DNA of 34,677 nucleotides from Desulfovibrio sp. (GTDB taxonomy: Bacteria > Desulfobacterota > Desulfovibrionia > Desulfovibrionales > Desulfovibrionaceae), in NCBI GenBank assembly GCA_014804965.1, contig JAAUYU010000028.1, positions 45,262-79,938 of the forward strand. The letters run 5' to 3'. Below are positions 1-28,661 of the stretch, in pieces. The notes beneath the pieces are model-generated. The model was not told the origin of the DNA and did not search any database. It saw only the letters and a program-made list of their open reading frames with translations. Both the position numbers and the translations under genes were made by a program. Numbering within the stretch: position 1 is the first letter of the stretch; the number at the start of each line of letters is the position of its first letter.

Positions 1-50
1 AGCGTCGCCATGCCCGCATAGCCCAGGGCATCTCTGCGTGCCGTGCTCAT
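1..50 (-). CDS. Start of a gene downstream of tctC (possible TctB-like subunit), truncated by the window edge
   Basis: On the minus strand an ATG at position 50 follows a GGAGG ribosome binding site and opens a frame that reads MSTARRDALGYAGMAT before leaving the window. It starts 9 nt after the stop codon of the TctC-type gene, so the two are almost certainly co-transcribed. In tripartite tricarboxylate transporter operons the gene after tctC is commonly tctB, a small four-helix membrane subunit. The 16 visible residues are too few to confirm that, so the identity is inference from position only. Confidence 0.5.
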   Translation of the reverse strand, partial: MSTARRDALGYAGMAT

Positions 51-59
51 GCGCGCCTC

Positions 60-1004
60 CTAGTTCTTGCCCGCGTTCTGGGCCTTTACGCGCTCGGCGG
101 TGGTGGCGATATAGTCGGCGGCATGCGCCGGGCCGAATTCCACCGGGGCCATGCGGAGCTTTTCCGCGATGAAGGTCTGGAGATCCTTGTTGGCGGCGAG
201 CCTGGCCACGGCCTCGTCGAGGCGCGCGCGGACGTCCGGCGGCAGGTCCTTGGGCGCCACGAGCGCGATGAACATCTCCACAGATTCGTCCCAGCCCTGG
301 TCCTTGAGCGTGGGGATGTCGGGGAGCGCGGTGAGGCGCCGGGGCGTGGTGGCGGCGAGGCACTTGAGCTTGCCCCCCTGCACGTAGTCAAACAGGATGG
401 CGCCCACATGGCCGAGGTCCGCATGGCCGCCCATGACCGCCGAGATGACCGATGGGCCGCCCGTGCTCGGCATGAGCGAGAGGGGCACCCCCTCCTTTTC
501 GGCGATGCGGCGCATGGCGTCCCTGTCGTCCGAGCCCTGGAACATGTAGGTGAGGCCGCGCCCTTCCTTCTTCGCCTGGGCAAAGGCGTCCTTCAGCGTG
601 TTCCAGGGCTTGTCGGGCGCACAGACGATGCCGCTCTGGTTGAGGCCGAGCAGGGTGAGGTAGGTGAAATCCTCGGGGGTATACTTGGTCTTGGTGACAA
701 AGGGTGAATAGGTGAAGGCCGCCGTGGCCGAGGTGCCCAGGGTGTAGCCGTCGGGCTTGGCGTTGGCCACTTCGGTGGCCATGACGCTGCCGTGCGAGCC
801 GCCAGGCATGTTGGTAACGAGCACCGGCTGTCCGAGATCGTTCTTGAGGGCCTCGGCCACGGCCCGGGTGAGCAGGTCGATCTGGGCGCCGGGGCCCGTC
901 ATGGTCAGCAGTTTCACGGGACGGTCGGGCCAGTCGGACGCGGCCTGGCAAGGCGCGCCGAACATGAGCCCCAGAAGCAGGGCGGCCAGAAGAAACTTTT
1001 TCAT
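60..1004 (-). CDS. Tripartite tricarboxylate transporter (TTT) substrate-binding protein, TctC/Bug family
   Basis: This is a periplasmic binding protein that captures an organic acid and hands it to a TctAB-type membrane carrier. The product has 314 residues, the usual size for the family. It begins MKKFLLAALLLGLMFGAPCQA, a clear Sec signal peptide with probable cleavage after the QA near residue 22. The mature start DWPDRPVKLL, the ligand-loop segment NMPGGSHG, the KPDGYTLG stretch and the C-terminal PxDLPPDVRARLDEA segment are all typical of Bug proteins. The start at 1004 was chosen because a GGAGGAGAT site precedes it and the signal peptide begins there; an upstream in-frame start would put about 22 unrelated residues before the signal. 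The substrate cannot be told from sequence. The following gene (1-50) starts 9 nt after its stop. Confidence 0.9.
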   Translation of the reverse strand: MKKFLLAALLLGLMFGAPCQAASDWPDRPVKLLTMTGPGAQIDLLTRAVAEALKNDLGQPVLVTNMPGGSHGSVMATEVANAKPDGYTLGTSATAAFTYSPFVTKTKYTPEDFTYLTLLGLNQSGIVCAPDKPWNTLKDAFAQAKKEGRGLTYMFQGSDDRDAMRRIAEKEGVPLSLMPSTGGPSVISAVMGGHADLGHVGAILFDYVQGGKLKCLAATTPRRLTALPDIPTLKDQGWDESVEMFIALVAPKDLPPDVRARLDEAVARLAANKDLQTFIAEKLRMAPVEFGPAHAADYIATTAERVKAQNAGKN

Positions 1005-7724: not shown

Positions 7725-8327
7725 TCAGCGCCGCTTCTTGAGGAGCGGCGGCAGCTTTTGGGCGAGGTAATCGCCCAGCCGGCGCACCAGCCGGCTCTCC
7801 GCGCCCACGAGGATATTGTAGTCGCTGCCCGCAACCTCTTCCTCGGCGGCGAAAATGCCGTCGGCGAGCGTGGCGTCGTGCCTGTCCAGCAGGCTCCAGC
7901 GGCTTTCAAGCACGGCCTTTTCGTTGAAGTTGCCGTCCAGGCGCTGCACATCCAGCAACAGCACATAGTCGCCGCCATTGGTCGTGCCCGTGGGGAGCAC
8001 CGTCACGCCGGCCTCGAGCAGGGGCGGCGTCAGGGTCTCCTCCACCACGCGGCGCACGCCGTTGCTCACAGGCTCGGCCCAGAGGTGGAACTCGGCGAGG
8101 ATGAGCTTGGTCTCGCCCGCAACACGGCTCACGATATTGTTGCGGTTGAGGTAGTTGGGCACCTCCACCATGGCCACGCGCAGGGTGGTGGGGGGCAGGT
8201 CGTCGGCCGTCACGGGCGCCATGCCGCTTTCCAGTAAATAATAGTTGGTGGGTGTGCTGCGGCCGCAGCCCGCGAGCGCGGCAAGAGCGAGACCGAGGAC
8301 GGCAAGAAGCGTAAGTATGCGGTGCAT
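7725..8327 (-). CDS. ABC-type transport auxiliary lipoprotein, PqiC/YmbA-like
   Basis: This 200-residue lipoprotein has a signal peptide ending in the lipobox LAGC, with C21 as the lipidated cysteine. Downstream, NYYLLESG and LRVAMVEVPNYLNRNNIV match the PqiC/YmbA family, which are outer-membrane-anchored partners of MCE proteins. It is the last gene of the Mla-like operon and its start overlaps the MlaD-like stop by a single base. In this operon it takes the place where enterobacterial mla has the soluble carrier MlaC, which is missing here. Its role would be to connect the periplasmic MCE ring with the outer membrane; that is inferred from family. Confidence 0.87.
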   Translation of the reverse strand: MHRILTLLAVLGLALAALAGCGRSTPTNYYLLESGMAPVTADDLPPTTLRVAMVEVPNYLNRNNIVSRVAGETKLILAEFHLWAEPVSNGVRRVVEETLTPPLLEAGVTVLPTGTTNGGDYVLLLDVQRLDGNFNEKAVLESRWSLLDRHDATLADGIFAAEEEVAGSDYNILVGAESRLVRRLGDYLAQKLPPLLKKRR

Positions 8328-10200: not shown

Positions 10201-10207
10201 AGCTTCC

Positions 10208-11335
10208 TCAGACGCCAATCACGTTGCAGATGATGGTGACGATGGCCGTCATGACGATGATGCCCACGAGGGAGTTGACCACGGCGCGCGTGGTGGTCTG
10301 GCCCACGGCCATGGCGCTCCTGCCGCAGCGCATCCCCTGATAGCAGCCCGCGATGGCGATGACCACCCCGAACAGCGTGCCGTAGACGAGCCCGATGACG
10401 AGCTGCCGATAGGGCACCATGTGCACCGTGGCGTGGATATATTCCAGAGGGTTGAGGCCCAGCATGCAGGTGCCTACGAGGAAGCCCCCTAAAACGCCCA
10501 TGAGGTCGGCATAGAGGGTGAGCAGGGGCACCATGAACATGAGCGCGAGCATACGCGGCAGCACGAGGAAGTCCACCGGAGAGATGCCGAGGGTCTCCAG
10601 GGCGTCGATCTCCTCGTTGACCTGCATGGTGCCGATGAACGCCGCATAGGCCGCGCCGATGCGGCCCGACATGACCACCCCCACCATGACCGCGCCCATG
10701 ACGCGCAACATGCCGATGCCCACAAGGCCTGCCACATAGATTTGCGCGCCGAACTGCGTGAGCTGCACCGCGCCCACAAAGGCGAGGATGAGCCCGAAAA
10801 GCATGCTTGTCACCGAAATGATGGGCAGCGACTGCACCCCGCACTCGTACATGGCGGTGATGAAGTCCTGGGGACGCATCCGCGAACGGCCGATGATGAG
10901 GTTCCACACGGCGATGCTCACGTCGCCGAGGAAGGAGAGAAAATCTGCGATGCGCGGGGGCAGGGCCAGGGCCGCCGCCCCGATGTGCTCGAAGACGTCG
11001 CCGCGGGTGGCGCTGCGCTCGGCCCCGGCGCGGGGCGGCACGGCGAAGGCCATGTCAACGAGGCGCGTGAGGCCCTCGGGCAGGTCCAGCGTGACCTTGA
11101 GCTTGCGCTCGCGCGCCCGCCTGACGAGCTGCACGAGAAAGACGAGCAGGCTGCTGTCCCAGGAGTCGAGGCCGCTCGCGCTGAGCGTGAGCCCCTGAAT
11201 ACGCTGGTCGGCGAGCCCGGCAAGGGCCGCGTCCGCCGATGCGGGCCAGGGGAGTTCAAGGCTCCAGCGGCCGCCCACGCTGACGCGCCAGACGCCGCCA
11301 ACGGCATCAGCCGTCACTTGCGGGCTCGATTCCAT
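10208..11335 (-). CDS. mlaE: STAS-MlaE fusion permease of an Mla-type lipid ABC transporter
   Basis: This 375-residue protein combines two Mla subunits. Residues about 1-105 form a STAS domain (VWRVSVGGRWSLELPW, then LTLSASGLDSWDSSLLVFL) corresponding to separate MlaB in Escherichia coli. Residues about 130-375 form the MlaE permease, with GRIGAAYAAFIGTMQVNEEIDALETLGI as the conserved coupling segment. The start at 11335 gives a proper STAS beginning. There is no clear Shine-Dalgarno, and a -10 box lies just upstream, so the mRNA may be leaderless. An upstream in-frame start near 11509 would run through the polA start region and adds unrelated residues. Confidence 0.9.
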   Translation of the reverse strand: MESSPQVTADAVGGVWRVSVGGRWSLELPWPASADAALAGLADQRIQGLTLSASGLDSWDSSLLVFLVQLVRRARERKLKVTLDLPEGLTRLVDMAFAVPPRAGAERSATRGDVFEHIGAAALALPPRIADFLSFLGDVSIAVWNLIIGRSRMRPQDFITAMYECGVQSLPIISVTSMLFGLILAFVGAVQLTQFGAQIYVAGLVGIGMLRVMGAVMVGVVMSGRIGAAYAAFIGTMQVNEEIDALETLGISPVDFLVLPRMLALMFMVPLLTLYADLMGVLGGFLVGTCMLGLNPLEYIHATVHMVPYRQLVIGLVYGTLFGVVIAIAGCYQGMRCGRSAMAVGQTTTRAVVNSLVGIIVMTAIVTIICNVIGV

Positions 11336-11371
11336 GCCGTTATCATACGCCACGCGGCCCGTTAAGCGCAA
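11318..11371. promoter_or_regulatory. Face-to-face promoters for polA (plus) and the mla operon (minus) sharing one -10 region
   Basis: On the plus strand TTGCGG (11318-11323), 17 nt, TATCAT (11341-11346) points to polA. On the minus strand TTGCGC (11366-11371), 18 nt, TATGAT (11342-11347) points to the STAS-MlaE gene. The two -10 boxes overlap almost completely, so the two promoters should compete for polymerase. The mla -10 ends 6 nt before the ATG, so the first transcribed base could be the A of the start codon. Boxes were assigned by eye. Confidence 0.5.
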
Positions 11372-11441
11372 GCGTGTCGCGCCCAACACATTTTTCCGGC
11401 GCAGCCCCCCCGGGGGCTCACGCGCCCCAGCGGATGGTGCC

Positions 11442-14183
11442 ATGTCGCTCAAGCAACGTCTCGGCCTCAACGCGGACCCCGTCTTTCTCATGGACGGCAC
11501 GGCCTTCATCTACAGGGGCTTTTTCGCCAACCGCCACATGCAGCGCTCCGACGGCTTCCCCACGAATGCACTCGTGGTGGTCACGCGCGTGCTTTTGCGC
11601 ATCCTGCGCGAGGAGAAGCCCAGGCATTTCCTCTTTCTCAAGGACGGGCGGGGCAAGAATTTCCGTCACGAGATCTATGCGGACTACAAGGCCAACCGCG
11701 AGGCCATGCCCGAGGACCTCGCCCGGCAGCTCCCGCCCATCGAGCGCATGGTCCACGCGCTGGGCCTCGCCTTCAAGGAGTCCGAGGGCTGCGAGGCCGA
11801 TGACTGCATCGCCGCGCTGGCCGCGCGCTTCGCACCCGAGCTTCCGGTGGTCATCATCAGCGGCGACAAGGACCTGAAACAGTGCCTCGCGCCCAATGTC
11901 TATATGTGGGACCCCGGCTCCAAGGACGAGCGCCTCACCACCGAGGCGGACTTTGAGGCCGAGAACGGCGTCACCCCGGCCCAGTGGCCCGACGTGCAGG
12001 CGCTCGTCGGCGACGCCAGCGACAATATCCCCGGCGTGCCCGGCATCGGCCCCAAGACCGCACGGCAGATCTTCGCCATCTGCCCCACGCTGGAGGACAT
12101 CCGCGACCATTTCGCCCTTTTGCCGCCCAAGTTGCAGGACAAGCTCAGGCCGCACCTTGAGGAAATGTTCACCTGGCGGGAGCTCACCAGGCTCTCGCGC
12201 GGCGTGTGCGCGGATATCGACCTTGGCGCGCTCGATGTGGGGCCCGTCAATATCCCGGAATGTCGCGAGCTTGCGCAGGAATTCGAGCTTTTCGCGCTCA
12301 GGCGCGAGATTGCGGCGCTCGTGCAGTCGGGGGCGCCCCATGTCTCCGCGCCGGATTTGGCGGGGGGCGCCCCCCGTGCGCCCGAGGACCCGGCCGGGGC
12401 CACGGATGAAGCGGCCACTCCGGCGGGGATGGACGCCGCCGGCGCCACCCAGCTTGCGCTGGGCGTGCCTGAGGTCCCGGCCGCCGAGGAGGTGGACAGC
12501 GTGAGTCGGCTCCCGGACTGCGCGGGCCGCACCGTGGCCCTTGTCTGGGCGGAGGGGCCCTCGCGGCCGCCGCGTGTGGCCGTCGCCCCAGCGGCGTCCC
12601 CCGCCGGAAGCGTGGAACCCGCCCCGGCCACGGCGCTGGCGGAGGTGGTGGAATATGCCTGGACAGGGCCCATGACGGAATTGTGCGCCTGGGCGGAAAA
12701 CGCGGCGGAAGTGGCCGTGGCCGACCTGAAGAGCCTGCTCCTTGCAGCGCCCTTCTGGAAGGGGCTGCTGAAAATCCGCGTGCTCGACCTCGGCCTTGCC
12801 GCCTACCTGCTCGGGCCCGAAGCCGGGGAATACGGCTGGTCGCGGCTCAGTGCCCGCTGGAGCGACGCCCTGGGCCTCGAGGGGCGCGGGCCCGCCATCG
12901 TGGGCTTGGGCATGGCGCATACGCTCGCCGCGCAGCTGGCGGCCAACGACCTCACGCGGCTCTACGAGAAGCTGGAATTGCCGCTCGTGCCTGTGCTCGC
13001 CGGCATGGAGGAGCGGGGCATCGCCATCGACCCGGCGGCCTTCCGCAGTTTTCTCGACGATGTGCAGCGGGAGCTCGACGCGCTCACGCGCGAGGTCTAT
13101 GCCGAGGCCGGGGGCGAGTTCAACATCCGCTCCGCGCGGAAGCTCGGGGAGGTGCTTTACGAGCGGCTGCACCTGCCCGCGCCCAAAAAGACCCGCGGCG
13201 GCCAGCCCTCCACCAGCCAGGAGACGCTGGAGCGGCTCGCGCCGGACGCGCCCATCGTGCAGAGCATCCTCCAGTACCGCAAGCTGGAGAAGATGCGCTC
13301 CACCTACCTCGAGCCGCTGCCCCTGCACATGGACGCGCATGACCGCATCCATACCACCTTCAACCAGGAGGCCACGGCCACGGGCCGCATCTCCTCCAGC
13401 AATCCCAACCTGCAGAACATCCCCGTGCGCGGGCCGCTCGGAAAGCGGATGCGGGCCTGTTTCGTGGCCGGGCCGGGCAATGCGCTGGTCTCCGCGGATT
13501 ATTCGCAGATCGAGCTGCGCGTGCTCGCCCACATGTCGCAGGACCCGGCCCTTTTGGACGCCTTCCGCCAGGGGGAGGACATCCACGCGCGCACCGCGGC
13601 GCTCGTGTTCGACATGCCGCAGGACAAGGTGCTGCCGGACCAGCGCCGCATGGCCAAGACCATCAATTTCGGCCTCATCTACGGCATGGGGGCCAACAAG
13701 CTCGGGCAGGAGCTCAAGATCTCCACGGCCGAGGCGCGGGCCTTCATCGACAGGTATTTCGCAAGGCTTACGGGGCTCAAGGCCTTTTACGAGCGCGTCA
13801 TCGACGGCGCGCGCGAGCGCGGCTATGTGGTCACGCTGGCGGGACGGCGCCGCTGGCTGCCCGGTATCCTTTCCGCCAACGGGCAGACGGCGGCCCAGGC
13901 CCAGCGCCAGGCCGTGAACACCGTCATCCAGGGCTCGGCCGCGGACATCATCAAGCTCGCCATGCTGGCCGCGGCCGGGGATGAGGAACTGCGGCGCCTG
14001 AAGGCGGGCCTCGTGCTCCAGGTGCATGACGAGCTTTTGCTGGAACTGCCGGAAGCCGGAGCAAAGGAGGCCGGGGCGCGCGTGGCGGCCCTCATGGAAT
14101 CGGTAAAGCCCGGCGGCGTCACGCTCTCCGTGCCACTCGTGGTGGACTGGGGCACGGGCCACAACTGGGGGGGCGCCCATTAG
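11442..14183 (+). CDS. polA: DNA polymerase I with degenerate 3'-5' exonuclease domain
   Basis: PolA fills gaps and removes RNA primers during replication and repair. The 913-residue product has an N-terminal 5' nuclease domain (FLMDGTAFIYRGF, CEADDCIAALA, and the helix-hairpin-helix NIPGVPGIGPKTARQ). It is followed by an Ala/Pro-rich insert of about 100 residues (near 300-410). The C-terminal polymerase domain is intact: motif A DYSQIELRVLAHMS (near 685), motif B KTINFGLIYGMG (near 740) and motif C QVHDELLLELPE (near 860). In the middle domain the exonuclease acid residues are not found where expected (VALVWAEG in place of the DxE strand, VADLKSLL in place of NLKYD), so proofreading is probably lost. 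The start at 11442 removes 36 unrelated residues of the longer frame. Confidence 0.97.
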   Translation: MSLKQRLGLNADPVFLMDGTAFIYRGFFANRHMQRSDGFPTNALVVVTRVLLRILREEKPRHFLFLKDGRGKNFRHEIYADYKANREAMPEDLARQLPPIERMVHALGLAFKESEGCEADDCIAALAARFAPELPVVIISGDKDLKQCLAPNVYMWDPGSKDERLTTEADFEAENGVTPAQWPDVQALVGDASDNIPGVPGIGPKTARQIFAICPTLEDIRDHFALLPPKLQDKLRPHLEEMFTWRELTRLSRGVCADIDLGALDVGPVNIPECRELAQEFELFALRREIAALVQSGAPHVSAPDLAGGAPRAPEDPAGATDEAATPAGMDAAGATQLALGVPEVPAAEEVDSVSRLPDCAGRTVALVWAEGPSRPPRVAVAPAASPAGSVEPAPATALAEVVEYAWTGPMTELCAWAENAAEVAVADLKSLLLAAPFWKGLLKIRVLDLGLAAYLLGPEAGEYGWSRLSARWSDALGLEGRGPAIVGLGMAHTLAAQLAANDLTRLYEKLELPLVPVLAGMEERGIAIDPAAFRSFLDDVQRELDALTREVYAEAGGEFNIRSARKLGEVLYERLHLPAPKKTRGGQPSTSQETLERLAPDAPIVQSILQYRKLEKMRSTYLEPLPLHMDAHDRIHTTFNQEATATGRISSSNPNLQNIPVRGPLGKRMRACFVAGPGNALVSADYSQIELRVLAHMSQDPALLDAFRQGEDIHARTAALVFDMPQDKVLPDQRRMAKTINFGLIYGMGANKLGQELKISTAEARAFIDRYFARLTGLKAFYERVIDGARERGYVVTLAGRRRWLPGILSANGQTAAQAQRQAVNTVIQGSAADIIKLAMLAAAGDEELRRLKAGLVLQVHDELLLELPEAGAKEAGARVAALMESVKPGGVTLSVPLVVDWGTGHNWGGAH

Positions 14184-16220: not shown

Positions 16221-16305
16221 TCAGGCTGTCATTTCAAGGCCCCGTCCGGTACTGCCAGACATGGCCCCGGCCGCGCAACGCGGCACGGGCCCTCAAGGAA
16301 TGCCC

Positions 16306-18235
<1,930 letters not shown>

Positions 18236-18258
<23 letters not shown>

Positions 18259-18937
18259 AGCCGCGGCCATCGTCCTTGAGGGCGTGGGCAAGCGCTTCGG
18301 GCCCGCACGCGTGCTCCGCAAGGTGGACGCGGCCTTCCCGGCAGGCGCGGTGACGCTCGTCACCGGGGGCAACGGCGCGGGCAAGAGCACCCTGCTCAAG
18401 ATCATGGCCGGTCTTTCCCGGCCGAGCGCGGGCCGCGTGACCCGTGCCACGGGCGCGGATGGCGGCGAGCCCAGGCTCGGCTATGTGGGCCACGCGACCT
18501 TTCTCTATCCCGGCCTCACGGCGCTGGAAAATCTCGCCTTCTGGCGCACGGCCCACCGGCTTCCGCTGGACAGGGCGGCGCTCCTCGCGCTGCTCGCGCG
18601 CGTGGGCCTCGTCGGTCACGCCCATGAGCGGGCGCGTGTTTTTTCGCGCGGCATGGCGCAACGGCTCAACCTCGCGCGGGTGCTCATGCTCGCGCCCGAC
18701 ATCCTGCTTCTGGACGAGCCCATGACCGGGCTCGACGCGCCTGCGCGCGAGCTTTTACGCCGCGAGATAGCCGACGCCCGCGCGGCCGGGGTCTGCGTGG
18801 CGCTGGTGAGCCACGACCTTGAGGGTGACGGCCCGCTCGCCGACCGGGTGCTGGCCCTGGCCTCGGGCTCGGTGGCCTATGAAGGCCCGGCTGCCGAATA
18901 TTTCGCCCGCGCGGGGGAGGAGCCATGCTGCGCCTGA
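18236..18937 (+). CDS. ccmA: Heme exporter ATP-binding protein CcmA
   Basis: CcmA is the ATPase of the CcmABCD complex, which releases heme-loaded CcmE. The 233-residue product has Walker A TGGNGAGKST (43-52), signature FSRGMAQRLNLARVL and Walker B DILLLDEPMTGLD, with VSHDLE as switch. The ATG at 18236 overlaps the end of ccmF by 23 nt. An in-frame GTG at 18251, preceded by GGGAAGG, is an equally good start and would shorten the product by five residues. The 3' end overlaps ccmB, supporting a tight operon. Confidence 0.93.
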
Positions 18938-19602
18938 GCCTCGCCATCGCCCGCAAGGACCTTGTGCTCACGCTCGCGCGCGGCAACGGCCTCGTGCAGG
19001 CGCTCCTCCTCGGGCTGCTTTTGCTTTTCGTGTTCAGCCTCGCGCAGGGACCCGGCGAAAAAGTGGGCCCGCAGGCGACCGCGGCCATGTTCTGGCTCGC
19101 CTCCGCCTTTTCGCAGGTGCTCATCTTCAACCGCCTTTATGACCTTGAGGAGGCCAATGCCGCCCGGCTCGGGCTGGCGCTTTTGCCCGCGCCCGTGCAG
19201 GCGGTGTGGCTCGGCAAGCTCGCGGCGGGGCTGGTGCTGCTTTTGCTGGCGCAGGCCGTCTTTCTGCCCGCGGCCCTGGTCTTTCTCGGGCAGGATGTGG
19301 CGGCTGAGCCGCTCACGGGGCTCGCCATGCTCGGCCTTGTGGACGCGGGCATGTGCGCCCTGGGCTCGCTGCTCGGGGCGCTGGCGCAGGGGCAGTCCGG
19401 GCGGGAATCCCTGCTCGGCGTCGTCCTGTTTCCGCTCCTGACGCCGCTTTTGCTCGCGGGCATCGGGGTGGGGGCCCAGTGTCTCGGCGCGCCCGCGCCC
19501 GACGGGCCAGCCGCGTGGTTCCGGCTGGCCGCGGCCTTTGATGCGGTATTCCTCGGCGTCGGGCTCGTGCTCTTCGGCTTCATCTATCCGGGGGAGGACT
19601 AA
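18925..19602 (+). CDS. ccmB: Heme exporter membrane protein CcmB
   Basis: CcmB is a membrane subunit of the CcmABCD complex. The 225-residue product is strongly hydrophobic with about six helices and family-typical stretches such as LARKDLVLTL, AAMFWLASAFSQVLIFNRL and EANAARLGLALLPAPVQAVWLGK. A GGAGGAG site precedes the ATG at 18925, inside the last codons of ccmA (13-nt overlap). It ends immediately before the ATG of ccmC. Length and order fit the family. Confidence 0.93.
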   Translation: MLRLSLAIARKDLVLTLARGNGLVQALLLGLLLLFVFSLAQGPGEKVGPQATAAMFWLASAFSQVLIFNRLYDLEEANAARLGLALLPAPVQAVWLGKLAAGLVLLLLAQAVFLPAALVFLGQDVAAEPLTGLAMLGLVDAGMCALGSLLGALAQGQSGRESLLGVVLFPLLTPLLLAGIGVGAQCLGAPAPDGPAAWFRLAAAFDAVFLGVGLVLFGFIYPGED

Positions 19603-20259
19603 ATGCCCAAGTGGCTCGCCCTTGCCGGCGGCGCGGCGCTGGCCGCCTGCCAGTGGCTCATCTGGTGCTACGCGCCGGAGGAAGCCACGCTCGGTCTGAT
19701 GCAGAAGATATTTTATCTCCACCTGCCGCTGGCGTGGTGGGCGCTCATCAGTTTCTTTGTGGTCTTTCTCGGGTCCATCGCCGTGCTCGCGCGCCGCAGC
19801 GATGCGGCGGACAGGCTGTGCGCCGCCGCAGCCGAGGTGGGCGTGCTCTTCAGCGGCCTGACCCTCGTGACCGGCATGATCTGGGCGCGCAAGTCCTGGG
19901 GCGTGTGGTGGACATGGGACCCGCGCCTTTCCACAGCGCTCGTGATGTGGTTCATCTATGCGGCCTACCTGCTCCTGCGCGGGCTGGACATGGCCCCGGA
20001 GCGGCGGCGCACAGTCTGCGCGGTGGTGGGCGTGGCCGCCTTTCTGGACGTGCCCTTGGTCTTTGTTTCCGCGCGCATCTGGCGTTCCATCCATCCGGCG
20101 GTCTTTGCCTCGCGCGAGGGGGGCCTCGAGCCGGAAATGAAGCTCACGGCCGTGGCCTGCGTGGCGGCCATGGGCCTGTTCTGGGCGGCACTCGTGTGGC
20201 TGCGCAAACGCCAGCTCGACCTCGCGGCCCGGCTGGAGGCCATCGGCGAGGAGGACTGA
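19603..20259 (+). CDS. ccmC: Heme exporter membrane protein CcmC
   Basis: CcmC presents heme to the chaperone CcmE. The 218-residue, six-helix protein carries the WWD segment SWGVWWTWDPRLST (98-111) and two histidines placed like the known heme ligands: H40 in FYLHLPLAWW and H164 in WRSIHPAVF. A GGGGAGGA site lies just before the stop codon of ccmB, so translation is coupled. The sequence is a normal, complete CcmC. Confidence 0.95.
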   Translation: MPKWLALAGGAALAACQWLIWCYAPEEATLGLMQKIFYLHLPLAWWALISFFVVFLGSIAVLARRSDAADRLCAAAAEVGVLFSGLTLVTGMIWARKSWGVWWTWDPRLSTALVMWFIYAAYLLLRGLDMAPERRRTVCAVVGVAAFLDVPLVFVSARIWRSIHPAVFASREGGLEPEMKLTAVACVAAMGLFWAALVWLRKRQLDLAARLEAIGEED

Positions 20260-20312
20260 CCGCGCGCAAGGCGGCTTGCGTTTCGGGCGGCAACACTTTT
20301 ACGGAGGACAGC

Positions 20313-20453
20313 ATGGACACCATATATTGGCTCATGGCAGGGAATGCCGTGGTCTGGGTCGGGCTCGGCGCGTATCTCGCCTTTCTGGCCGGGCGCGAGC
20401 GCGCGCTCGCCCTGCGCGTTGACGCCTGGGAGCAGGACCGCCGTGACCAGTGA
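20313..20453 (+). CDS. ccmD: Small CcmD-like membrane protein
   Basis: This is a 46-residue peptide, MDTIYWLMAGNAVVWVG..., with one membrane helix (about 6-27) and a charged C-terminal tail. ACGGAGGA precedes its ATG. Size, topology and position after ccmC match CcmD, which keeps CcmC and CcmE in the CcmAB complex. CcmD proteins share little sequence, so the call leans on context. Its stop overlaps the GTG start of the TPR gene. Confidence 0.8.
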   Translation: MDTIYWLMAGNAVVWVGLGAYLAFLAGRERALALRVDAWEQDRRDQ

Positions 20454-21120
20454 CATCACCCTCAATACCCGCGCGCGGGTGCTCGTCATCAGCCTCGCCA
20501 TCGCGCTCGTGGCCATGCTGGCGGCATCCCTCGCGGAGCGCTTCACCTCCTCAGGGCTCACGGTGCGGCACACGCACGAGCCCGCGGCACAGGCAACGGC
20601 CCCGGGTACGGACGAGGTGGGGCGCCTCATGCAGGAAGTCTCCAAAGATCCCGGCAACAAGGCCGCGCTTGTGGAGATCGCCGAGCGGCTCATGGGCATG
20701 GGGAGCTGGGACGGGGCCGAGAGCTTCGCCACGCGCGCCCTGGCGCTGGACCCGAGGGATGCCCGCACGCGCTATCTTCTGGGCGTCATCCGCCACAATC
20801 AGGGCAAGCACGCCGAGGCTGCCAAACTCCTCGAGGAGGCGCTCAAGGACGGGGAGAGCGCGCCCATGCGCTACAGCCTCGGTGTCCTCTACCTGCACTA
20901 TCTGGATGACCCGGCGCGCGGCGTGGAACACCTGAGCCGGGCCCTGCACGCCCCGGACGCCGACGAGAGCCTGCGCCAGAGCATCCGCGAAGAGCTGGAA
21001 AAGGCCCCGCTGCCCGAAAAGCAGGCGCCGGGCGGGGATGCCGAGGGCGCGAAGGGCGCATCCTCCAGCAGGAAGGCCGCCACGCAAAAAGGGGCACCCG
21101 GCGGCGCGAAGCAGCGCTGA
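20443..21120 (+). CDS. Membrane-anchored TPR protein, CcmI/CcmH C-terminal-like
   Basis: I place the start at the GTG at 20443, which overlaps the ccmD stop; an upstream ATG (20344) would read through ccmD. The 225-residue product has one helix near the N-terminus (about 12-30). A TPR region follows from about 58 to 165, with NKAALVEIAERLMGMGSWDGA and the ALALDPRDARTRYLLGVIRHNQGKH type repeat. The tail is Lys/Ala/Gly-rich. TPR proteins of the CcmI type hold apocytochromes for heme attachment, so in this operon it is likely to do the same. Direct similarity to CcmI was not established. Confidence 0.75.
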   Translation: MTSDITLNTRARVLVISLAIALVAMLAASLAERFTSSGLTVRHTHEPAAQATAPGTDEVGRLMQEVSKDPGNKAALVEIAERLMGMGSWDGAESFATRALALDPRDARTRYLLGVIRHNQGKHAEAAKLLEEALKDGESAPMRYSLGVLYLHYLDDPARGVEHLSRALHAPDADESLRQSIREELEKAPLPEKQAPGGDAEGAKGASSSRKAATQKGAPGGAKQR

Positions 21121-21255
21121 GGCCCGCACTTGCCTCTTTTTTCAGGCGGTTGTAGAGAAAGGAAAAGATTCGTGCCCCTTCGCCCGGCATGAGGGCCGGG
21201 GCAGCCTTGTACGGAGCATCCGGCCCGGCGTCGCGCGCGCCGCAGCGAGGTGGAG

Positions 21256-22191
21256 ATGGCCCGTCGCAAATCGAGGAAGAATGCCGACGCCTCAAGGCGT
21301 CCGGCGGTGGTGAACGAGCAGGAAGCCGCGGCACCGCTTCATGGCGGCGCGGACAAGATCCCGAAAGGGGAGGCTCCGGCCGCGCCCGCGCCCAAAGGCG
21401 GGAAGGCCGGGCGCCCCGGCGGGGCCCCAGCTTCCGCCCCCATTTCGCGGCCGACTTCCGGTGCGCCATCCGCCCCAGCTTCGGCCCCGGCTTCAGGAAA
21501 GTGGGTGCGGCTTTCCACCTGTATCGCGGGCATGGTGCTGACCCTGGTGCTCGGCCTGTATCTCGGGACACTGCTTCCGGGTGTGCTTCAGGATATGCGC
21601 GGCCAGGCAGGGCTGCGGCGGGAAATGGCGGCCGCACCGGCGCAGATGCCTCCCGGCGATGCGGTGCCGTCGGCCCCCGCGGCTCCGGCCTCCCCGAGTG
21701 CGGAAAGCGCGCGGCCGCATCCGGGAGCCACCGATGCCGCCGCGGCCGGGCTGCCCCCCGGTCTTGCCGCGCGGCTTTCCGAGCTCGAAGCCGCCGTCCG
21801 CAAGGACCCGGCCTCGGCCGCCAACTGGACGGAGCTCGGCAACCTCTTCTTTGACGCGGGCCGCGTCCACGAGGCCATCAACGCCTATGAGCGCTCGCTG
21901 GCCATAGCCCCCGGCAATGCCGACGTGCTGACGGACCTCGGCATCATGTACCGCGAAAACGACGCCCCGGAAAAGGCCGTGGACTGCTTCCGCAAGGCCT
22001 TCGCGGCGGACCCGCGCCATGAGAACGCCCTCTTCAATGCGGGCGTGGTGCTCTATAATGATCTCGGCCGCAAGGACGAGGCCGTGGCTGCCTGGCGCAG
22101 GCTGCTCGCGCTCAATCCGCAGGCGCGCGCGCCCGACGGGCGCACTGTTCAGGAAATGGTTCGGCGGTTGGAAGAACCGCCCCGGAGATAA
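21256..22191 (+). CDS. Second membrane-anchored TPR protein of the ccm cluster
   Basis: This is a 311-residue protein. An Ala/Pro/Lys-rich cytoplasmic head (1-82) precedes one membrane helix (about 86-107, LSTCIAGMVLTLVLGLYLG). A second low-complexity linker follows. About three TPR units run from near 183 to 295 (NWTELGNLFFDAGRVHEAINAYERSLAIAPGN, then DVLTDLGIMYREN and ENALFNAGVVLYNDLGRKDEA). The ATG at 21256 has GAGGTG before it; a GTG at 21250 is a weaker option. It lies 135 nt after the first TPR gene and 7 nt before the pseudokinase gene, so it could link the two. Function is unknown beyond a scaffold role. Confidence 0.75.
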   Translation: MARRKSRKNADASRRPAVVNEQEAAAPLHGGADKIPKGEAPAAPAPKGGKAGRPGGAPASAPISRPTSGAPSAPASAPASGKWVRLSTCIAGMVLTLVLGLYLGTLLPGVLQDMRGQAGLRREMAAAPAQMPPGDAVPSAPAAPASPSAESARPHPGATDAAAAGLPPGLAARLSELEAAVRKDPASAANWTELGNLFFDAGRVHEAINAYERSLAIAPGNADVLTDLGIMYRENDAPEKAVDCFRKAFAADPRHENALFNAGVVLYNDLGRKDEAVAAWRRLLALNPQARAPDGRTVQEMVRRLEEPPRR

Positions 22192-22198
22192 TGCCGCT

Positions 22199-25100
22199 AT
22201 GACGATGATGGGGAATGGGGCTCCGGCGTGCCGCCTTATGCGGGCGGGCCTGCCGGTCATGGCCCTTGTTGTGCTGGCTTGCCTCCTTTTTCTGGCGCAG
22301 CCGGGTCTTGCCGCCGACGCCCTTGTGCCGGGGGCGAGGCCCGATGTGTCGCCCGATGCCCAGGCCGAAGCCACCGTGGCCCCGGCACTGGCAGCCCTCC
22401 AGGCGTCGCGCCCGGCCGGCGCGCGGCCGCAGCAGCCCATGCTCCCGGCCAGGGGCGCGGGCCCCAGCCTTTCGCTTTTGCCCTATCTTGATTACCTGCT
22501 TGATGAAAGCGGCACGCTGGACATCGAGGAGGCCGCCGCCGCGGACAGGGCCTCCGCCTATGCGCCGCTCGCGCTGGAAAAGCTCCCCCGCGCCGAGGGC
22601 GTCATGTGGCTGCGCTTCACGCTCGCGCCGCTTCAGTCCGGCGAGCGGCCGCAGACCCTGCTGCTCGACATGGGCGCGAGCATCCCCGGCACGCCCATGC
22701 TCTACGAGCCGGAGCGCAATGACCTGAGCGGCGCGCTGGAATGGCGCGAATCGAGCCCGGCCCCGCGCAATGTGCTGGTGCTCCCCGAAGCCTGGGTGGA
22801 GCCCGTCACCTGCTATATCCGCCTCGACGGGCTGCCCGGCCTCTGGTTCTCGCCGCTGGTGCGCACCCCTGCGGACGCGGCCACCAACTGGGGCAGCCTC
22901 GCCCGCACGGGGGCCATCCTCGCGCTCGGCATCGTCATGCTGCTCTGCCTCTTGCGCTGGCTTTCCGAAAACGGGCAATGGCGCGTCTGGACGGCTCTCT
23001 ATGTGGCCGTGGCGCTCGGGCAGGCCCTGCTCGGGATGCCCGAAGCGGGCACAGCCGGTCTCGGGCTCGGCAAGGCTGCGGCCACGCTCGCGCCCGGTAT
23101 CGCGCTCATGCTGCTGCCCCATGTGGGGCGGCATCTCATGCGCACGCATGAGCGCGCGCGCAGCATCGACATCCAGCTTTTCCTGCTCTCCTTCCCCGGC
23201 GCGGCGCTGGCGCTCCTGCCCCTCCTGCCGGGTTGGGCCTGGCTGGACCGCTGGCTCGACCTCTGGCCCGCGGCCACCCTTATTTTTGTGCCCACGGCGC
23301 TCGGCGCGTGGATCATGGGCCTTGGCGGGGCGCCCCGCTTCCTGCTGGGCTGCCTTTTGCCGCCGCTCTTTGTGGCCGCGGGCGTGTTCGGTCTCGATTT
23401 CGGCATCCCGGCCAATCTCCTCTCCTCGGCCCCCCTCTGGGGCACGGCGCTGAGCGCGCTGCTCATCGCGGCGACGGGCGCTCCGGCGGACATGGCCGCG
23501 CCCGCAGCCGGGACAGCTGCCGCCGAGCCGAAGCCCGACCAGCCGGAGGAGGGCGGCATCATCACCCTTGAGCATCCGCTGGACGACCCCAACCTGCGCC
23601 TCGTTTCCGGGGGCACTGCCGCTCCGGCGGCTGCGACAGATAACGCGGCGGCTCCCGGCAGGGATGAACCGCTTCCCGAAGGCATTTCGGCGGAAAGGGC
23701 CAGGGCCGAGGCCCGCGAGGGGGCCCTGCGCGCGCCGCTCGACGACCTTTTGCGCGAAGGCGCGGCGCTTGAACAGTGCGCGCTGCCTCCGGCCGTGCGG
23801 CAATATGCGTCCGCCATGCTGGCGGCGGCGCGGCGCATGGCCGATGTGCTCAGCCAGCCCGATGCCGGGGCTGCCGACAGTACGGGCGAGGACGCCGGAG
23901 AGTCGGCCACGGCCTTCGACTTGCAGCGGCTTTTGCGTGAGGCCCACGGGGCCGTGGCCCCGGCGGCGGAATACGCGGGCATCGGCCTTGCGTGGTATAT
24001 GCCGCCCCATCTCGGTCAGCTCTATCGCGGCGACGCCCGGACCTTGGGCGAGACGCTGGGCCTTTTGCTGGAAAGCGCGGTACGCGCCACGCGGCAGGGG
24101 GCCGTGCACCTTTCGGCGCGGCGCGTGCCCGAGAGCAGTGACGCGGGCAATATCCTCTTCACCGTCACCGATACCGGCACGGGTGCGCCCCCGAGCGAGC
24201 GCTCCAGCCTCGCCCTTGCGCGCGCCTGGGAGCTGGCGGCGCGCCACGGCGGCTATGTGGGCATGGAATACGGCCCCAACGGCACCACCATCGCCTTTTC
24301 GCTGCACCTTGAGCCCTTGGAGGACAGCGCCGAGGACCTGCCCGGCGAGGGCCTGCCGCATGTCATCGTGGTGGCGGAGGATGTGGCGCAGCGGCGTGAG
24401 CTTGCCCGCATGGCCGCGGACCTGCCCTGCCGCCTGAGCGAGGCGGGGAGCGAGCACGAGGCCCTGAGGCGGCATGAGGCGGACCCGGCCGTGCTGCTGG
24501 TGGCACACGGGCGCTATGCGCTCCCAGCCGCTGCGGACATGGTGACGAAATTCATGGAGATCGCCGCCGAGGCCGGGCTTTCCGGCTGCAAGGTGCTGGC
24601 CATCACCGCGGATGATAGCCAGTGGAACCTCCTCGCGGACAGCGGCTTCACCCATGCCCTGCTGGAGCCGGTGGACGCCGAGGCCCTGCGCCAGACCGTG
24701 CGTGACGTTATCCGCAATGCGCGGCGCACACGCCCCGCCGCCCCCAAGACCTCGGAAAAGGGAGAGGATGCGCCGCAAGAGAAAGCGGCGGAGAATGCGG
24801 AAATAGCCGCGGACGCGCCCGCAACGGACGAAGCCGCGAGCGCGCCCGAAGGGACTGGGGAGGGCGCCGACGCCGCTCCGGCCCCTGCTGAAGAGACGCC
24901 CGCAGCCAGGGAAAAAACGCCTGCCGAGGCGCCAGAGGCCCCCAAGACTGAGGTCGAAGCCCAGGCGGCTGCTGGTGAGACTGAGCAGGTTCCTGAGCCG
25001 GAGCAGCCTGAGACTGCGAAAGAAAGCCCGGTCCCCGAAGAAATTAAGGATGATGCTGCGGGAGTTGTGGCTGCTGCCCCGGCTGCCGAGGCAGGCGAAC

Positions 25101-26467
25101 CCACGCCCACGCCTGAAGAAAACCAGGAGGGGGCCAGCGCCGACGCCGAACCCGCAGAGGCCGCGGCGTCTGAGGCCGCCCCTGCAGCGGATGAAGTCCC
25201 GCAGGCCGTGGCCGATGCGCCCGCGTCCCCAGAGGATGCCGGAAGCGCGGCTGCCGAACTTTCGGAAACGGCTGTGAGCGAGACCAGGGCCGAAGCCGAA
25301 ACCGAGGCCTTGCTGGCCTCTGTGGTGGAGGCCCGTCCGGCCGCGCCGGAAGCGGAAAGCCCGGAGCCTGCTCCAGCGCAGGACGCGCCTCGGCCGCCGG
25401 AAGAAAAACCTGCTCCTGAAGCCGCGCCGGAGGCCCAGGCGGAGCCTCCCCGCGTAGGCTCCGTGGCTGCGCCCCGTCCCGCGACCGCGCAGGGCGCCCG
25501 CGCGTCGGTCTATGTGAGCCCGGCCCTGGCGAGCCCCGGCGAATGGGTGGGCGAGCCCATGCCCATCGGCACGCCGGTGCCGCGCCGTGAGACGCCGGAA
25601 CCCGCGGCCGAGGGCCGACCCGAGGCCCGGAGTGAGGCCTCGAGTGCGTCTTGGCCCAGGACCGAAGCGCAGAGCGATGCCGCACCGCGTGAGGAAGCGC
25701 CCGCTTGGCGGCGCGGTCCGGCGCAGTCCACGCCGGGGGGCTACACGAGCCCGAGCGTGCCCGTGCCCGGTGAATGGGTGGGCGAGCCCATGCCCATCCC
25801 GCGCAAGCCGGCAGCGGCCGCCGTGGAGGAGGGGGTGGATGCCACAGCCCCGCAGCCCGAGGAAGTACGGGCCGCGGCTCCCGAAACCCAGCCCGCTTCC
25901 ACCGCGCCCCTTGCCGGGGAGGGCGGTTCGCTCATGGATTTCATTGTCGGGGCCACGCGCGTGGAAGCGGCTCCCCCAACCGGGGCCGTCCGGCCCGCGG
26001 CCGGGGACCAGCCCAGCGGCGGCATGACGGATTTTGTGGAGCGCAGCGTCACCCTGGTGACGAGCGCCGTCTCCTCGGCTCTTGCCCCGGCTGCCGAAGC
26101 CGATGCGGCTTCCGTGCCGCAGGCAAGCCCCGGAGTGGCCTCCCCCGAGGCACACGACGCCGGTCCCAATTCAGGTGCCGGAGCTGCTTCCGAGGACGCC
26201 GCCATCTTGGCGCTGGTGGCGCGACTGGATGCGGCCATGGCCGAGGCGAATTCCGCCCACGCCGCCGGGCGCGGGCACATGGTCGCGCAGGCGGCGGCGA
26301 AGATCGCCGAGGAGTCGGAGAGCTTCGGCTTCCGCGTGCTGGCGCGCATGGCGCGTTGCGTGGAGCGGGCGGGCCGCGCCGGGGACATGAATGCGCTCCG
26401 GGACCTGCTCCCCGAGCTCGCGGTCTCGGTGGAGCGCAACCGCATCGCCCTGACCCAGCACAAATAG
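22199..26467 (+). CDS. Hybrid histidine-kinase-like protein with no recognisable phosphotransfer residues
   Basis: The 1422-residue product is shaped like a full phosphorelay protein. It has a signal/anchor, a periplasmic 7TMR-DISMED2-like region (LPYLDYLLDE, VMWLRFTLAPL), and seven membrane helices (about 233-430). A DHp-like segment carries GALRAPL (508-514), an ATPase-like part VTDTGTGA (656-663), and a receiver-like part VIVVAEDV (722-729). A long Ala/Glu/Pro linker (about 837-1110) precedes two copies of GEWVGEPMPI, and the C-terminus is an Hpt-like helical domain. The expected histidine of DHp is G508. The N-box asparagine is E625/S626. The second glycine box reads SLAL. The receiver aspartate is A769 and its lysine is E823. 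The Hpt histidine is A1367. The start at 22199 lies 7 nt after the TPR stop. It is thus probably a pseudokinase scaffold or sensor. Confidence 0.75.
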   Translation: MTMMGNGAPACRLMRAGLPVMALVVLACLLFLAQPGLAADALVPGARPDVSPDAQAEATVAPALAALQASRPAGARPQQPMLPARGAGPSLSLLPYLDYLLDESGTLDIEEAAAADRASAYAPLALEKLPRAEGVMWLRFTLAPLQSGERPQTLLLDMGASIPGTPMLYEPERNDLSGALEWRESSPAPRNVLVLPEAWVEPVTCYIRLDGLPGLWFSPLVRTPADAATNWGSLARTGAILALGIVMLLCLLRWLSENGQWRVWTALYVAVALGQALLGMPEAGTAGLGLGKAAATLAPGIALMLLPHVGRHLMRTHERARSIDIQLFLLSFPGAALALLPLLPGWAWLDRWLDLWPAATLIFVPTALGAWIMGLGGAPRFLLGCLLPPLFVAAGVFGLDFGIPANLLSSAPLWGTALSALLIAATGAPADMAAPAAGTAAAEPKPDQPEEGGIITLEHPLDDPNLRLVSGGTAAPAAATDNAAAPGRDEPLPEGISAERARAEAREGALRAPLDDLLREGAALEQCALPPAVRQYASAMLAAARRMADVLSQPDAGAADSTGEDAGESATAFDLQRLLREAHGAVAPAAEYAGIGLAWYMPPHLGQLYRGDARTLGETLGLLLESAVRATRQGAVHLSARRVPESSDAGNILFTVTDTGTGAPPSERSSLALARAWELAARHGGYVGMEYGPNGTTIAFSLHLEPLEDSAEDLPGEGLPHVIVVAEDVAQRRELARMAADLPCRLSEAGSEHEALRRHEADPAVLLVAHGRYALPAAADMVTKFMEIAAEAGLSGCKVLAITADDSQWNLLADSGFTHALLEPVDAEALRQTVRDVIRNARRTRPAAPKTSEKGEDAPQEKAAENAEIAADAPATDEAASAPEGTGEGADAAPAPAEETPAAREKTPAEAPEAPKTEVEAQAAAGETEQVPEPEQPETAKESPVPEEIKDDAAGVVAAAPAAEAGEPTPTPEENQEGASADAEPAEAAASEAAPAADEVPQAVADAPASPEDAGSAAAELSETAVSETRAEAETEALLASVVEARPAAPEAESPEPAPAQDAPRPPEEKPAPEAAPEAQAEPPRVGSVAAPRPATAQGARASVYVSPALASPGEWVGEPMPIGTPVPRRETPEPAAEGRPEARSEASSASWPRTEAQSDAAPREEAPAWRRGPAQSTPGGYTSPSVPVPGEWVGEPMPIPRKPAAAAVEEGVDATAPQPEEVRAAAPETQPASTAPLAGEGGSLMDFIVGATRVEAAPPTGAVRPAAGDQPSGGMTDFVERSVTLVTSAVSSALAPAAEADAASVPQASPGVASPEAHDAGPNSGAGAASEDAAILALVARLDAAMAEANSAHAAGRGHMVAQAAAKIAEESESFGFRVLARMARCVERAGRAGDMNALRDLLPELAVSVERNRIALTQHK
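25541..25798 (+). repeat. Two identical 27-nt units encoding GEWVGEPMPI
   Basis: Positions 25541-25567 and 25772-25798 are identical over 27 nt and encode the core of GEWVGEPMPI (residues 1114-1123 and 1191-1200). They sit inside the low-complexity linker of the pseudokinase, 231 nt apart. Nucleotide identity in a drifting linker suggests recent duplication or strong selection, for example as a docking motif. Confidence 0.85.
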
Positions 26468-26597: not shown

Positions 26598-27020
26598 ATG
26601 TACAGCAAGGTTCTTTTGCCGGTGAGCGGCGAATCCCGTGGCGAGCGCTCCCGGAAGGCCCTGGCCAAGGCTATGGCCGTGAGTTCCGGCGAGATCATCC
26701 TGCTTCACGTTACCGAGCCCATTTCCCAGGTGGTGGGGGGCGAAGCCCGCGTGGAGCTGGAGCGCGAGGAATCGGCCCAGGGCCTGACCCTGCTTTGCCC
26801 CATCATCGAGATTCTCGAAAATGCGGGCGCGGCCTTCCACACCCGTGTTGAGGCCGGAACCATCGCCGAGACCATCGTGCGCATCGCCGACGAGGAAAAG
26901 GCAGACCTTATCGTCATGTACACCGACGGCCGCGACGGCTTGAGCGACATGCTGCTCGGCTCCATCACCGAGCGCGTGCTCCGCAATACGGGCGTGGACC
27001 TGCTTGCGGTGAGAAACTAG
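26598..27020 (+). CDS. Universal stress protein, UspA family
   Basis: This is a 140-residue cytoplasmic protein with the single-domain UspA fold. It begins MYSKVLLPVSGE and has EIILLHVTEP and the nucleotide-loop pattern ADLIVMYTDGRDGLSDMLLG followed by SITERVLRN. In the loop the usual GxxGxxxxxxxxxGS is close to intact, so ATP binding is possible. AAAGGAGG precedes the ATG at 26598; a longer frame would add 26 unrelated residues. It appears monocistronic. A perfect GC palindrome at 27023-27036 after the stop is a weak terminator candidate without a U-tract. Confidence 0.88.
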   Translation: MYSKVLLPVSGESRGERSRKALAKAMAVSSGEIILLHVTEPISQVVGGEARVELEREESAQGLTLLCPIIEILENAGAAFHTRVEAGTIAETIVRIADEEKADLIVMYTDGRDGLSDMLLGSITERVLRNTGVDLLAVRN

Positions 27021-27236: not shown

Positions 27237-28661
27237 ATGCTCATCCTGCATATCCTGCTGGGTCTCGTCATCCACAGCCTTTCCTGGGTGGCGGCCATCC
27301 ACGCGCTCCTCACCAAGCGCGACCCGCGCTCCGCCCTGGGCTGGACGACCTGCGTCATTTTCCTGCCCCTCGTGGGGCCGCTGCTTTATGCGCTCTTCGG
27401 CATCAGCCGCGCCCAGAGCAGGGCGGAAAAGATACTGCGCCGCGAGGCCGCCCACGACCGGGCCCGCACGCTCTCCGCCTGCAATCCCGTGGCCCCCGGC
27501 ACGGAATCCCGGCCCGAGAGTGAAGAGGCCGTCATTCTCGCCCGCACCGGACACAAGCTCACGGAGCTCCCCCTCTGCGGCGGCAATGCCATCACGCCGC
27601 TGCACAATGGCGACGAGGCCTATCCCGCCATGCTCGCGGCCATTGACGCGGCGAAATCGCATGTGTTTCTCGCCACCTATATTTTCAATGCGGGCAAGGC
27701 CGGGCACGCCTTTGTGGAGGCACTGACCCGCGCGGCGGACCGTGGCGTGGATGTGCGCGTGCTGGTGGACGGCGTGGGCGCGCTCTATTCCTGGCACAAG
27801 CCTTGGAAGGTGCTCAAGCGCCGCGGTGTCGCCACGGCGCGCTTCCTGCCGCCCTCGCTCATCCCGCCGAAATTCTCCATCAACCTGCGCAACCACCGCA
27901 AGGTTCTCGTTTGCGACGCCGTGGGCTTCACGGGCGGCATGAATATTTCCGACGGCAACCTGGCTTCCGCGGGGAGGCGCCGCATCCAGGACATGCACTT
28001 CCGCTGCGTGGGCCCTGTGGTGAGCAGCCTGCGCCACGCCTTCGTGCTTCACTGGGGCTTCTGCACGGGCGACTACGCGCCGCCCCCGCCCATGCCCGAT
28101 GCGCCCGCAGGCGACCACCACTGCCGTCTGGTCGTGGACGGCCCGGGCAATGACGCCGACGTGATCAATGACCTCATCTGCGGGGCCATCAACATGGCCC
28201 GCAAGCGTGTGCGCATCATGACCCCGTATTTCCTGCCCTCGCACGACCTCATGGGCGCCCTGCGCTCGGCCGGGCAGCGCGGGGTGGACGTGCGCGTGGT
28301 GCTGCCCGCGAAGAACAATCTCCCCTACATGAACTGGGCCACCTCGCGCCTCCTGCCGGGGCTGCTCTCCGCGGGGGTGCGCGTGCTCTACCAGCCGCCG
28401 CCCTTCGCGCACACCAAGCTGCTCGTGGTGGACGATTTCTACACCCAAGTAGGGTCGGCCAACCTCGACGCGCGCTCCCTCAGGCTCAATTTCGAGCTGA
28501 ACATGGAGATTTTCGACCCGTCCTTTGCGGGCGGCATCGCGGACTTCATCGACGCCGCCGTGGAGAAGGGCCGCGAGATCACCCTTTCTGAGCTCGAAGC
28601 CGAGACCCTGCCCGTGAAATTGCGCAATTCTGCCTGCTGGCTCTTTTCGCCCTATTTGTGA
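27237..28661 (+). CDS. cls: Cardiolipin synthase (phospholipase D family)
   Basis: The enzyme joins two phosphatidylglycerols to cardiolipin at the inner membrane. The 474-residue product has two N-terminal helices (about 1-55, with TKRDPRSALGWTTCVIFLPL typical of bacterial Cls). Two HKD catalytic motifs follow: NHRKVLVCDAVGFTGGMN near 219-236 and HTKLLVVDDFYTQVGSANLD near 392-411. Both contain the H-x-K-x4-D pattern. The length is standard for ClsA. It lies 216 nt after the UspA gene, a gap in which I recognise no gene or RNA. Confidence 0.95.
   Translation: MLILHILLGLVIHSLSWVAAIHALLTKRDPRSALGWTTCVIFLPLVGPLLYALFGISRAQSRAEKILRREAAHDRARTLSACNPVAPGTESRPESEEAVILARTGHKLTELPLCGGNAITPLHNGDEAYPAMLAAIDAAKSHVFLATYIFNAGKAGHAFVEALTRAADRGVDVRVLVDGVGALYSWHKPWKVLKRRGVATARFLPPSLIPPKFSINLRNHRKVLVCDAVGFTGGMNISDGNLASAGRRRIQDMHFRCVGPVVSSLRHAFVLHWGFCTGDYAPPPPMPDAPAGDHHCRLVVDGPGNDADVINDLICGAINMARKRVRIMTPYFLPSHDLMGALRSAGQRGVDVRVVLPAKNNLPYMNWATSRLLPGLLSAGVRVLYQPPPFAHTKLLVVDDFYTQVGSANLDARSLRLNFELNMEIFDPSFAGGIADFIDAAVEKGREITLSELEAETLPVKLRNSACWLFSPYL

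Follow-up and report, generated by a model that had tools for sequence, protein, structure and literature searches.

A phosphorelay-shaped, putatively non-catalytic receptor with a repeated linker motif in Desulfovibrio

To our knowledge, histidine pseudokinases have mostly been described one at a time, DivL and RetS being examples. The sensor of RetS is of the 7TMR-DISM type, DivL is not known to possess a receiver or an Hpt domain, and the Hpt domain of RcsD carries its histidine and passes phosphate. Pseudo-histidine kinases as a class are already recognised, with RetS among those covered in a review (PMC12189002). RetS is described as possessing receivers and a degenerate HATPase domain that lacks G-boxes, as down-regulating GacS, and as retaining the H-box HExxT (PMC5992135). 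DivL is described as a PAS-based protein that has neither kinase nor phosphatase activity and that binds DivK-P (PMC4211667).

The Desulfovibrio protein analysed here resembles RetS in its 7TMR-DISM sensor, DHp helices, degenerate HATPase and receiver, with a match by both profile and fold; in contrast to RetS, which keeps its H-box and acts on GacS, it has lost the DHp histidine and carries an Hpt-fold end as well as a linker with EWVGEPxP motifs. With DivL it shares the DHp-CA fold (Foldseek match 4q20, at 28-29% identity across some 235 columns) and an apparent lack of kinase activity, which for the present protein is read from its residues, whereas DivL is PAS-based, and the present protein additionally lacks the ATP lid and the N-box asparagine. 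RcsD is likewise a membrane protein of phosphorelay shape whose Hpt fold (1sr2) matches, but its Hpt histidine is replaced by A1367 here, and the NCBIfam RcsD model matched the protein at 9.3e-8 with 30.4 bits (cut-off 634), the TorS model performing better (3.2e-11). Homologue L079, a kinase of the same family, displays the same architecture and the same TPR neighbour (TPRb), but its DHp, N-box, G2 and receiver residues are intact and it has no EWVGEP motif. In the literature searched, most subscription papers being outside its reach, no case was found that combines loss of the DHp, ATPase, receiver and Hpt sites with a deleted lid, a repeated motif of its own and a relative that is still intact.

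The window, i.e. the whole stretch of 34,677 nucleotides that was analysed, carries the gene on its forward strand. Its frame is already open from an ATG at 22019, and the ATG at 22199 is the start used here. The gene and the parts of its product are as follows.

22199..26467, + strand: putative pseudo-hybrid histidine kinase gene, 1422 aa (frame, residues, homologues)
22226..22330, + strand: N-terminal hydrophobic segment (signal or anchor), residues 10-44 (hydropathy)
22460..22882, + strand: periplasmic sensor, 7TMR-DISMED2-like, residues 88-228 (Pfam, below cut-off in the window protein)
22883..23482, + strand: 7TM region, 7TMR-DISM_7TM-like, residues 229-428 (hydropathy; Pfam match of a homologue)
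23681..23938, + strand: DHp-like helices, histidine column at G508
23939..24322, + strand: HATPase-like domain without lid, N-box asparagine column at S626, G2 box gone, G1 kept
24350..24724, + strand: receiver-like domain, aspartate column at H770, lysine column at E823
24734..26200, + strand: long, poorly conserved and probably disordered linker (40% identity to L003, dN/dS about 0.4)
25541..25567, + strand: EWVGEPMPI copy 1, residues 1115-1123
25772..25798, + strand: EWVGEPMPI copy 2, residues 1192-1200
26201..26464, + strand: Hpt-fold domain without phospho-histidine (A1367)

Only HATPase_c and 7TMR-DISMED2 were matched by the window protein in Pfam, both below cut-off (19.6 bits against a cut-off of 22 for the latter). 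DISMED2 reached 32.3 bits in L015, and 7TMR-DISM_7TM, unmatched in the window protein, exceeded its cut-off in L016 only, among four homologues scanned; the DISMED2-7TM receptor layout is thus assigned by way of these two homologues. A profile built from 22 homologues aligned the DHp-CA-REC part with ShkA (6qrj, E 8.8e-20) and RetS, and reading off this alignment places the ShkA histidine at G508 and the ShkA N-box asparagine at S626, while the receiver aspartate column was placed at H770 by relatives with an intact receiver. The predicted structure of the C-terminal end is a bundle of four helices (pLDDT 95), for which Foldseek returned HptB as best match (TMq 0.91, rmsd 1.1, but an E-value of only 0.035) and also the Hpt of RcsD (1sr2). 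Structural alignment with VIA-align paired 88 residues (1..88) with HptB 25..112 and 81 residues (1..81) with RcsD 810..890; taking this pairing as gap-free, A1367 corresponds to HptB 57 and RcsD 842, which we take to be the phospho-histidine positions of those proteins. A sequence search of the PDB with the profile of this end found no Hpt domain, whereas the fold search did.

The C-terminal domain therefore has the four-helix fold of an Hpt domain and no phospho-histidine, and the features of a catalytic hybrid histidine kinase are likewise missing, namely the DHp histidine, the ATP site (N-box asparagine, G2 box and lid) and the receiver aspartate and lysine. The first-pass annotation had named five replaced catalytic residues, and four of these, G508, S626, E823 and A1367, are confirmed at their columns. 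Its A769 is indeed present but lies one position short of the aspartate column, which is H770, and the aspartate is missing in either case; the losses of the lid and of the G2 box come in addition to those five. The domain set that it proposed stands for the DHp, ATPase, receiver and Hpt-like parts, through relatives, profile and predicted fold, but its seven helices were incompletely resolved by a hydropathy plot. Judged by these residues, the window protein is almost certainly non-catalytic.

To establish how widely these residues are missing, 57 homologues were aligned, comprising 50 Desulfovibrio rows (including L015 and L027) and seven from other genera; duplicate copies of one and the same contig, the partial matches of G004, G010 and G022, and weak sensor-only matches (in G103 and in genomes of genus g12, L082 and L083 among the latter) were left out. 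Since some rows are near-identical and others are fragments, the tallies count sequences and not events: the DHp histidine occurs in one of 51 homologues (L079), the N-box asparagine in three of 53 (serine in 47), the receiver aspartate in 6/56, the receiver lysine also in 6/56 (glutamate in 37), and the Hpt phospho-histidine in none of 54. A G1-type DxGx[GAS] element is retained in 51 of 53 homologues, a GLGL-type G2 box is found in L079 only (1/53), and the ATP-lid region spans 21 residues in 52 of the 53 and 41 in L079. The related genomes thus bear out, for nearly all homologues, the same missing residues.

L079, from another genus (g16) of the same family, matches HisKA, HATPase_c and Response_reg above the Pfam cut-offs and carries the DHp histidine, N-box asparagine, GLGL box, and receiver aspartate and lysine; the histidine of its Hpt-like end is already missing. 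The first-pass annotation had named intact kinase orthologues at the same locus as refuting its reading; this applies by half, as L079 is an intact kinase relative with TPRb immediately upstream, but it lies away from ccm. In L015, L018, L022 and L077 the DHp histidine and N-box asparagine are lost and the receiver aspartate and lysine are kept, with Response_reg above the Pfam cut-off in L015 and L022. The remaining Desulfovibrio rows lack the receiver aspartate, and L019 has the lysine alone. In L020 and L078 the N-box asparagine is present despite a short lid and no DHp histidine. Furthermore, the DHp-ATPase part is missing from L084 (815 aa) and L086 (780 aa), as are the ATPase and receiver from L085 (742 aa), and all three retain the sensor, the 7TM region and the C-terminal Hpt-like region. 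A sensor-7TM tree, rooted at its midpoint and with L079 on a long branch, places receiver losses at more than one point and fits either one or several losses of the DHp histidine. From these sequences, descent of the pseudokinase from a kinase like L079 is most likely.

The domains that have lost their catalytic residues are held by purifying selection, most clearly the ATPase among close kin. By the Nei-Gojobori method, with the window gene compared to single relatives, dN/dS was 0.010 (L002) and 0.027 (L003) for the ATPase domain, 0.088 and 0.121 for the Hpt-like domain, and 0.087 and 0.185 for the receiver, as compared to 0.395 and 0.425 for the linker; the N-terminus also lay at about 0.4, and the sensor, 7TM, DHp, receiver and Hpt-like parts together ranged from 0.06 to 0.19 against the same two relatives. 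Against the distant L087, L005 and L011 the values are rough since dS often exceeds 1, with 0.17-0.24 for the ATPase, 0.17-0.34 for the receiver, 0.35-0.53 for the DHp and 0.53-0.60 for the linker, and at that distance the ATPase is no longer clearly below the other domains. Selection for a non-catalytic role, as proposed in the first-pass annotation, is well supported by these low ratios and by the absence of the residues across nearly all homologues.

The linker of about 490 residues is poorly conserved and probably disordered, and the EWVGEPMPI motif is its conserved exception. The motif was found in 46 of 53 linkers, amounting to 90 copies with one to six per linker, and in none of 10,600 shuffles. 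Searching all aligned rows with W[VIL]G[EDQ]P, a pattern that itself fixes W, G and the first P, returned 93 copies, in which the V and the second P, unconstrained by the pattern, are identical in 93/93 and an E precedes the W in 89. At the DNA level, the genome of the window carries the motif pattern twice, both times inside the pseudokinase gene, and among 16 further genomes it occurs in 12, of which 11 have it inside the homologous gene and one (G059) elsewhere; this last EWVGEP match, in a frame of 54 aa, appears fortuitous. The motif is not universal, as it is missing from seven of the 53 linkers (L011, L014, L079, L084, L086, L212 and L213) and also from L085. One sub-clade has multiplied it, with six near-identical copies in L196, four in L197 and four in L198. 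Its location after the 7TM region indicates that it should be cytoplasmic. The EWVGEP motif had no match among solved structures, and none was found in the literature searched, where most subscription papers were outside reach. Whether the motif acts as a ligand for a partner protein appears evenly balanced.

On balance, we consider the protein to be probably a pseudokinase receptor that signals by docking, related to an active hybrid histidine kinase of the 7TMR-DISM type and most likely derived from one. Its domains remain under purifying selection although they have lost the residues for phosphotransfer, the lid over the ATP site and the G2 box. As to mechanism, docking or scaffolding is slightly favoured. 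The periplasmic sensor, perhaps together with TPRb, whose TPRs are predicted to be periplasmic, would alter how the 7TM/DHp part is set; docking surfaces would be offered by the three dead modules (ATPase, receiver and Hpt); the EWVGEPxP motif of the linker would bind a candidate cytoplasmic partner; and the signal would thus leave through protein contact instead of phosphate. Besides the residue losses, the selection and the motif, it counts in favour of such a receptor that the gene is kept in G003, G008 and G131, with one HisKA match each, and that the homologues devoid of an ATPase keep the sensor-7TM and Hpt-like regions. The ATPase-like domain may still bind nucleotide, given the retained G1 element and the N-box asparagine of L020 and L078. 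A more specific scheme is tentative and rather less likely: a His-Asp-His chassis would have become a phosphate-free receptor, with exit through the repeated EWVGEPxP motif and a dedicated cytoplasmic partner, and with the lid-less ATPase binding a new ligand or partner.

The main rival, which overlaps the docking-receptor reading and which we consider unlikely, is a protein acting in the manner of RetS or DivL, i.e. one that pairs with a single active histidine kinase or response regulator as an allosteric switch, mainly through its DHp and ATPase surfaces. The top five Foldseek rows for the core are ShkA, GacS, RetS (twice) and DivL, albeit at a TMq of only 0.34-0.36 because the domains are arranged differently, ShkA and RetS head the profile search, and the effect of RetS on GacS and the binding of DivK-P by the inactive DivL, as given in the texts cited above, provide precedents; the window's own genome (G000), furthermore, has six HisKA matches. 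Conversely, the H-box that RetS retains is lost in the window protein, and some relatives have lost the DHp-ATPase part (L084 and L086) or the ATPase and receiver (L085). A shared partner kinase was also sought by a HisKA (PF00512) census, and none common to G000, G003, G008 and G131 was seen: the latter three have one match each, an NtrB-like kinase (named by eye), and that of G008 is at most 32% identical to any of the six in G000. G003, G008 and G131 are small Desulfovibrio genomes (1.4-1.6 Mb), and their sole HisKA kinase, of approximately 505 aa, is 72-77% alike among them.

The first-pass annotation had proposed, as a possibility, a scaffold or sensor for redox or heme assembly, a reading that draws on the position of the gene downstream of ccm. 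The surroundings in the window are as follows.

16261..21120, + strand: ccmF, ccmA, ccmB, ccmC, a ccmD-like frame and TPRa
21119..21142, + strand: hairpin and T run downstream of TPRa, weak here and pronounced in several relatives
21250..22191, + strand: TPRb, one TM helix followed by TPRs, a steady neighbour
26598..27020, + strand: universal stress protein, downstream of the pseudokinase gene
27237..28661, + strand: PLD-family gene (putatively cardiolipin-synthase-like), a frequent downstream neighbour

The gene order 5' to 3' is ccmF, ccmA, ccmB, ccmC, a 46-aa frame without Pfam match at the position expected of ccmD, TPRa, TPRb and the pseudokinase gene, so that the upstream ccmFABCD of the earlier annotation is upheld for its first four genes, as is its gap of 7 nt between the TPR gene (TPRb, ending at 22191) and the ATG at 22199. 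TPRb has a basic N-terminus followed by a single predicted TM helix, and its TPRs should therefore be periplasmic. An Rfam search of the window gave no match. Two long antisense frames, one of 1347 aa opposite the pseudokinase gene (22112-26155, - strand) and one of 920 aa opposite a polA-like gene (11418-14180), look like composition artefacts at a GC content of approximately 70%. At 7725-11509 (- strand) the translations have, by eye, the look of a Mla-type lipid transport cluster (MCE-domain protein, ATPase and permease).

A role in heme delivery or redox sensing with the ccm cluster would draw on this position and on TPRb, which scores just below the cut-off of the CcmH/CycH TPR family (41.4 versus 42 bits) and so preserves a weak functional tie. 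Among Desulfovibrio loci with enough flank, ccmC lies upstream in 29 of 43 and TPRb in 44 of 46, and 38 of 43 have the PLD-family gene downstream. The place after ccm, whose constancy the first-pass annotation had suggested checking, therefore holds for those 29 loci only; the 14 Desulfovibrio loci without upstream ccm are spread over three parts of the tree, and in L168 ccm lies approximately 9 kb away on the opposite strand. In five genomes of other genera (G097, G104, G110, G122 and G124) ccmC is matched on a separate contig or approximately 0.5 Mb away, and the 5-11 kb following TPRa contain neither TPRb nor the pseudokinase gene, which in three of these five is close to a contig end. TPRb adjoins the gene in L022, L077, L078 and L079, and does not in L080; by eye, TPRb homologues in other genera that lack the pseudokinase gene have no kinase alongside. 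In L165 and L166 (G003 and G001), a protein of 356-370 aa appears by eye to fuse the N-terminus of TPRa to a TPRb-like TPR, on a different contig from the pseudokinase.

The hairpin following TPRa is weak in the window (-8 kcal/mol, z -0.25). Of eight relatives that were folded, six beat nearly all shuffles (at most 4/200), while L023 (46/200) and L003 (160/200) do not. A scan for hairpins of -8 kcal/mol or better followed by T, which is of low specificity, with shuffles made per letter and with intervals that reach to the next BLAST match and include some coding DNA, recorded 14 in 24 TPRa-TPRb intervals (29 loci entered) against 25/480 shuffles, 12 in 29 TPRb-pseudokinase intervals against 41/580, and 3 in 26 control ccmC-TPRa intervals against 27/520. 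The persuasive hairpin evidence is the recurrent form GGGCTTGCCTCTTTTTT in L005, L026, L087, L169, L171, L199, L200 and L201. The pseudokinase gene and ccm are thus neighbours in much of the genus and, in view of the elements between TPRa and TPRb, perhaps not one transcript. The heme or redox role rested on a position that synteny fails to uphold, and with these hairpins also standing against it we regard it as improbable.

That the gene is decaying and on its way out is very improbable: residues and domains have been lost and L004 is split into two frames (possibly an assembly error), but dN/dS in the dead domains stays far below 1, and a match was obtained in every one of the 24 other same-genus genomes searched (in G004, which is 63% complete, through an 82-aa end only), with no internal stop in the matches listed, including those of the 1.4-1.6 Mb genomes. 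Least credible of all is a phosphate carrier, in which receivers with aspartate and lysine would accept phosphate from another donor in some lineages, as the two residues do occur together in L015, L018, L022, L077 and L079, with receivers above the Pfam cut-off in two of these, but the proposal is inapplicable to the window protein (H770, E823) and to Desulfovibrio rows other than L015.

Pseudo-histidine kinases being known already, it is the combination seen here that was not found in the literature searched. The private repeated motif of the linker is the most useful lead, as it can serve directly in the search for a partner of the proposed docking receptor. Additionally, one family presents a graded series, from an intact kinase through a dead kinase part with live receiver residues to fully dead and domain-deleted forms, and this series shows which parts of a phosphorelay remain under selection once its phosphate chemistry is lost.
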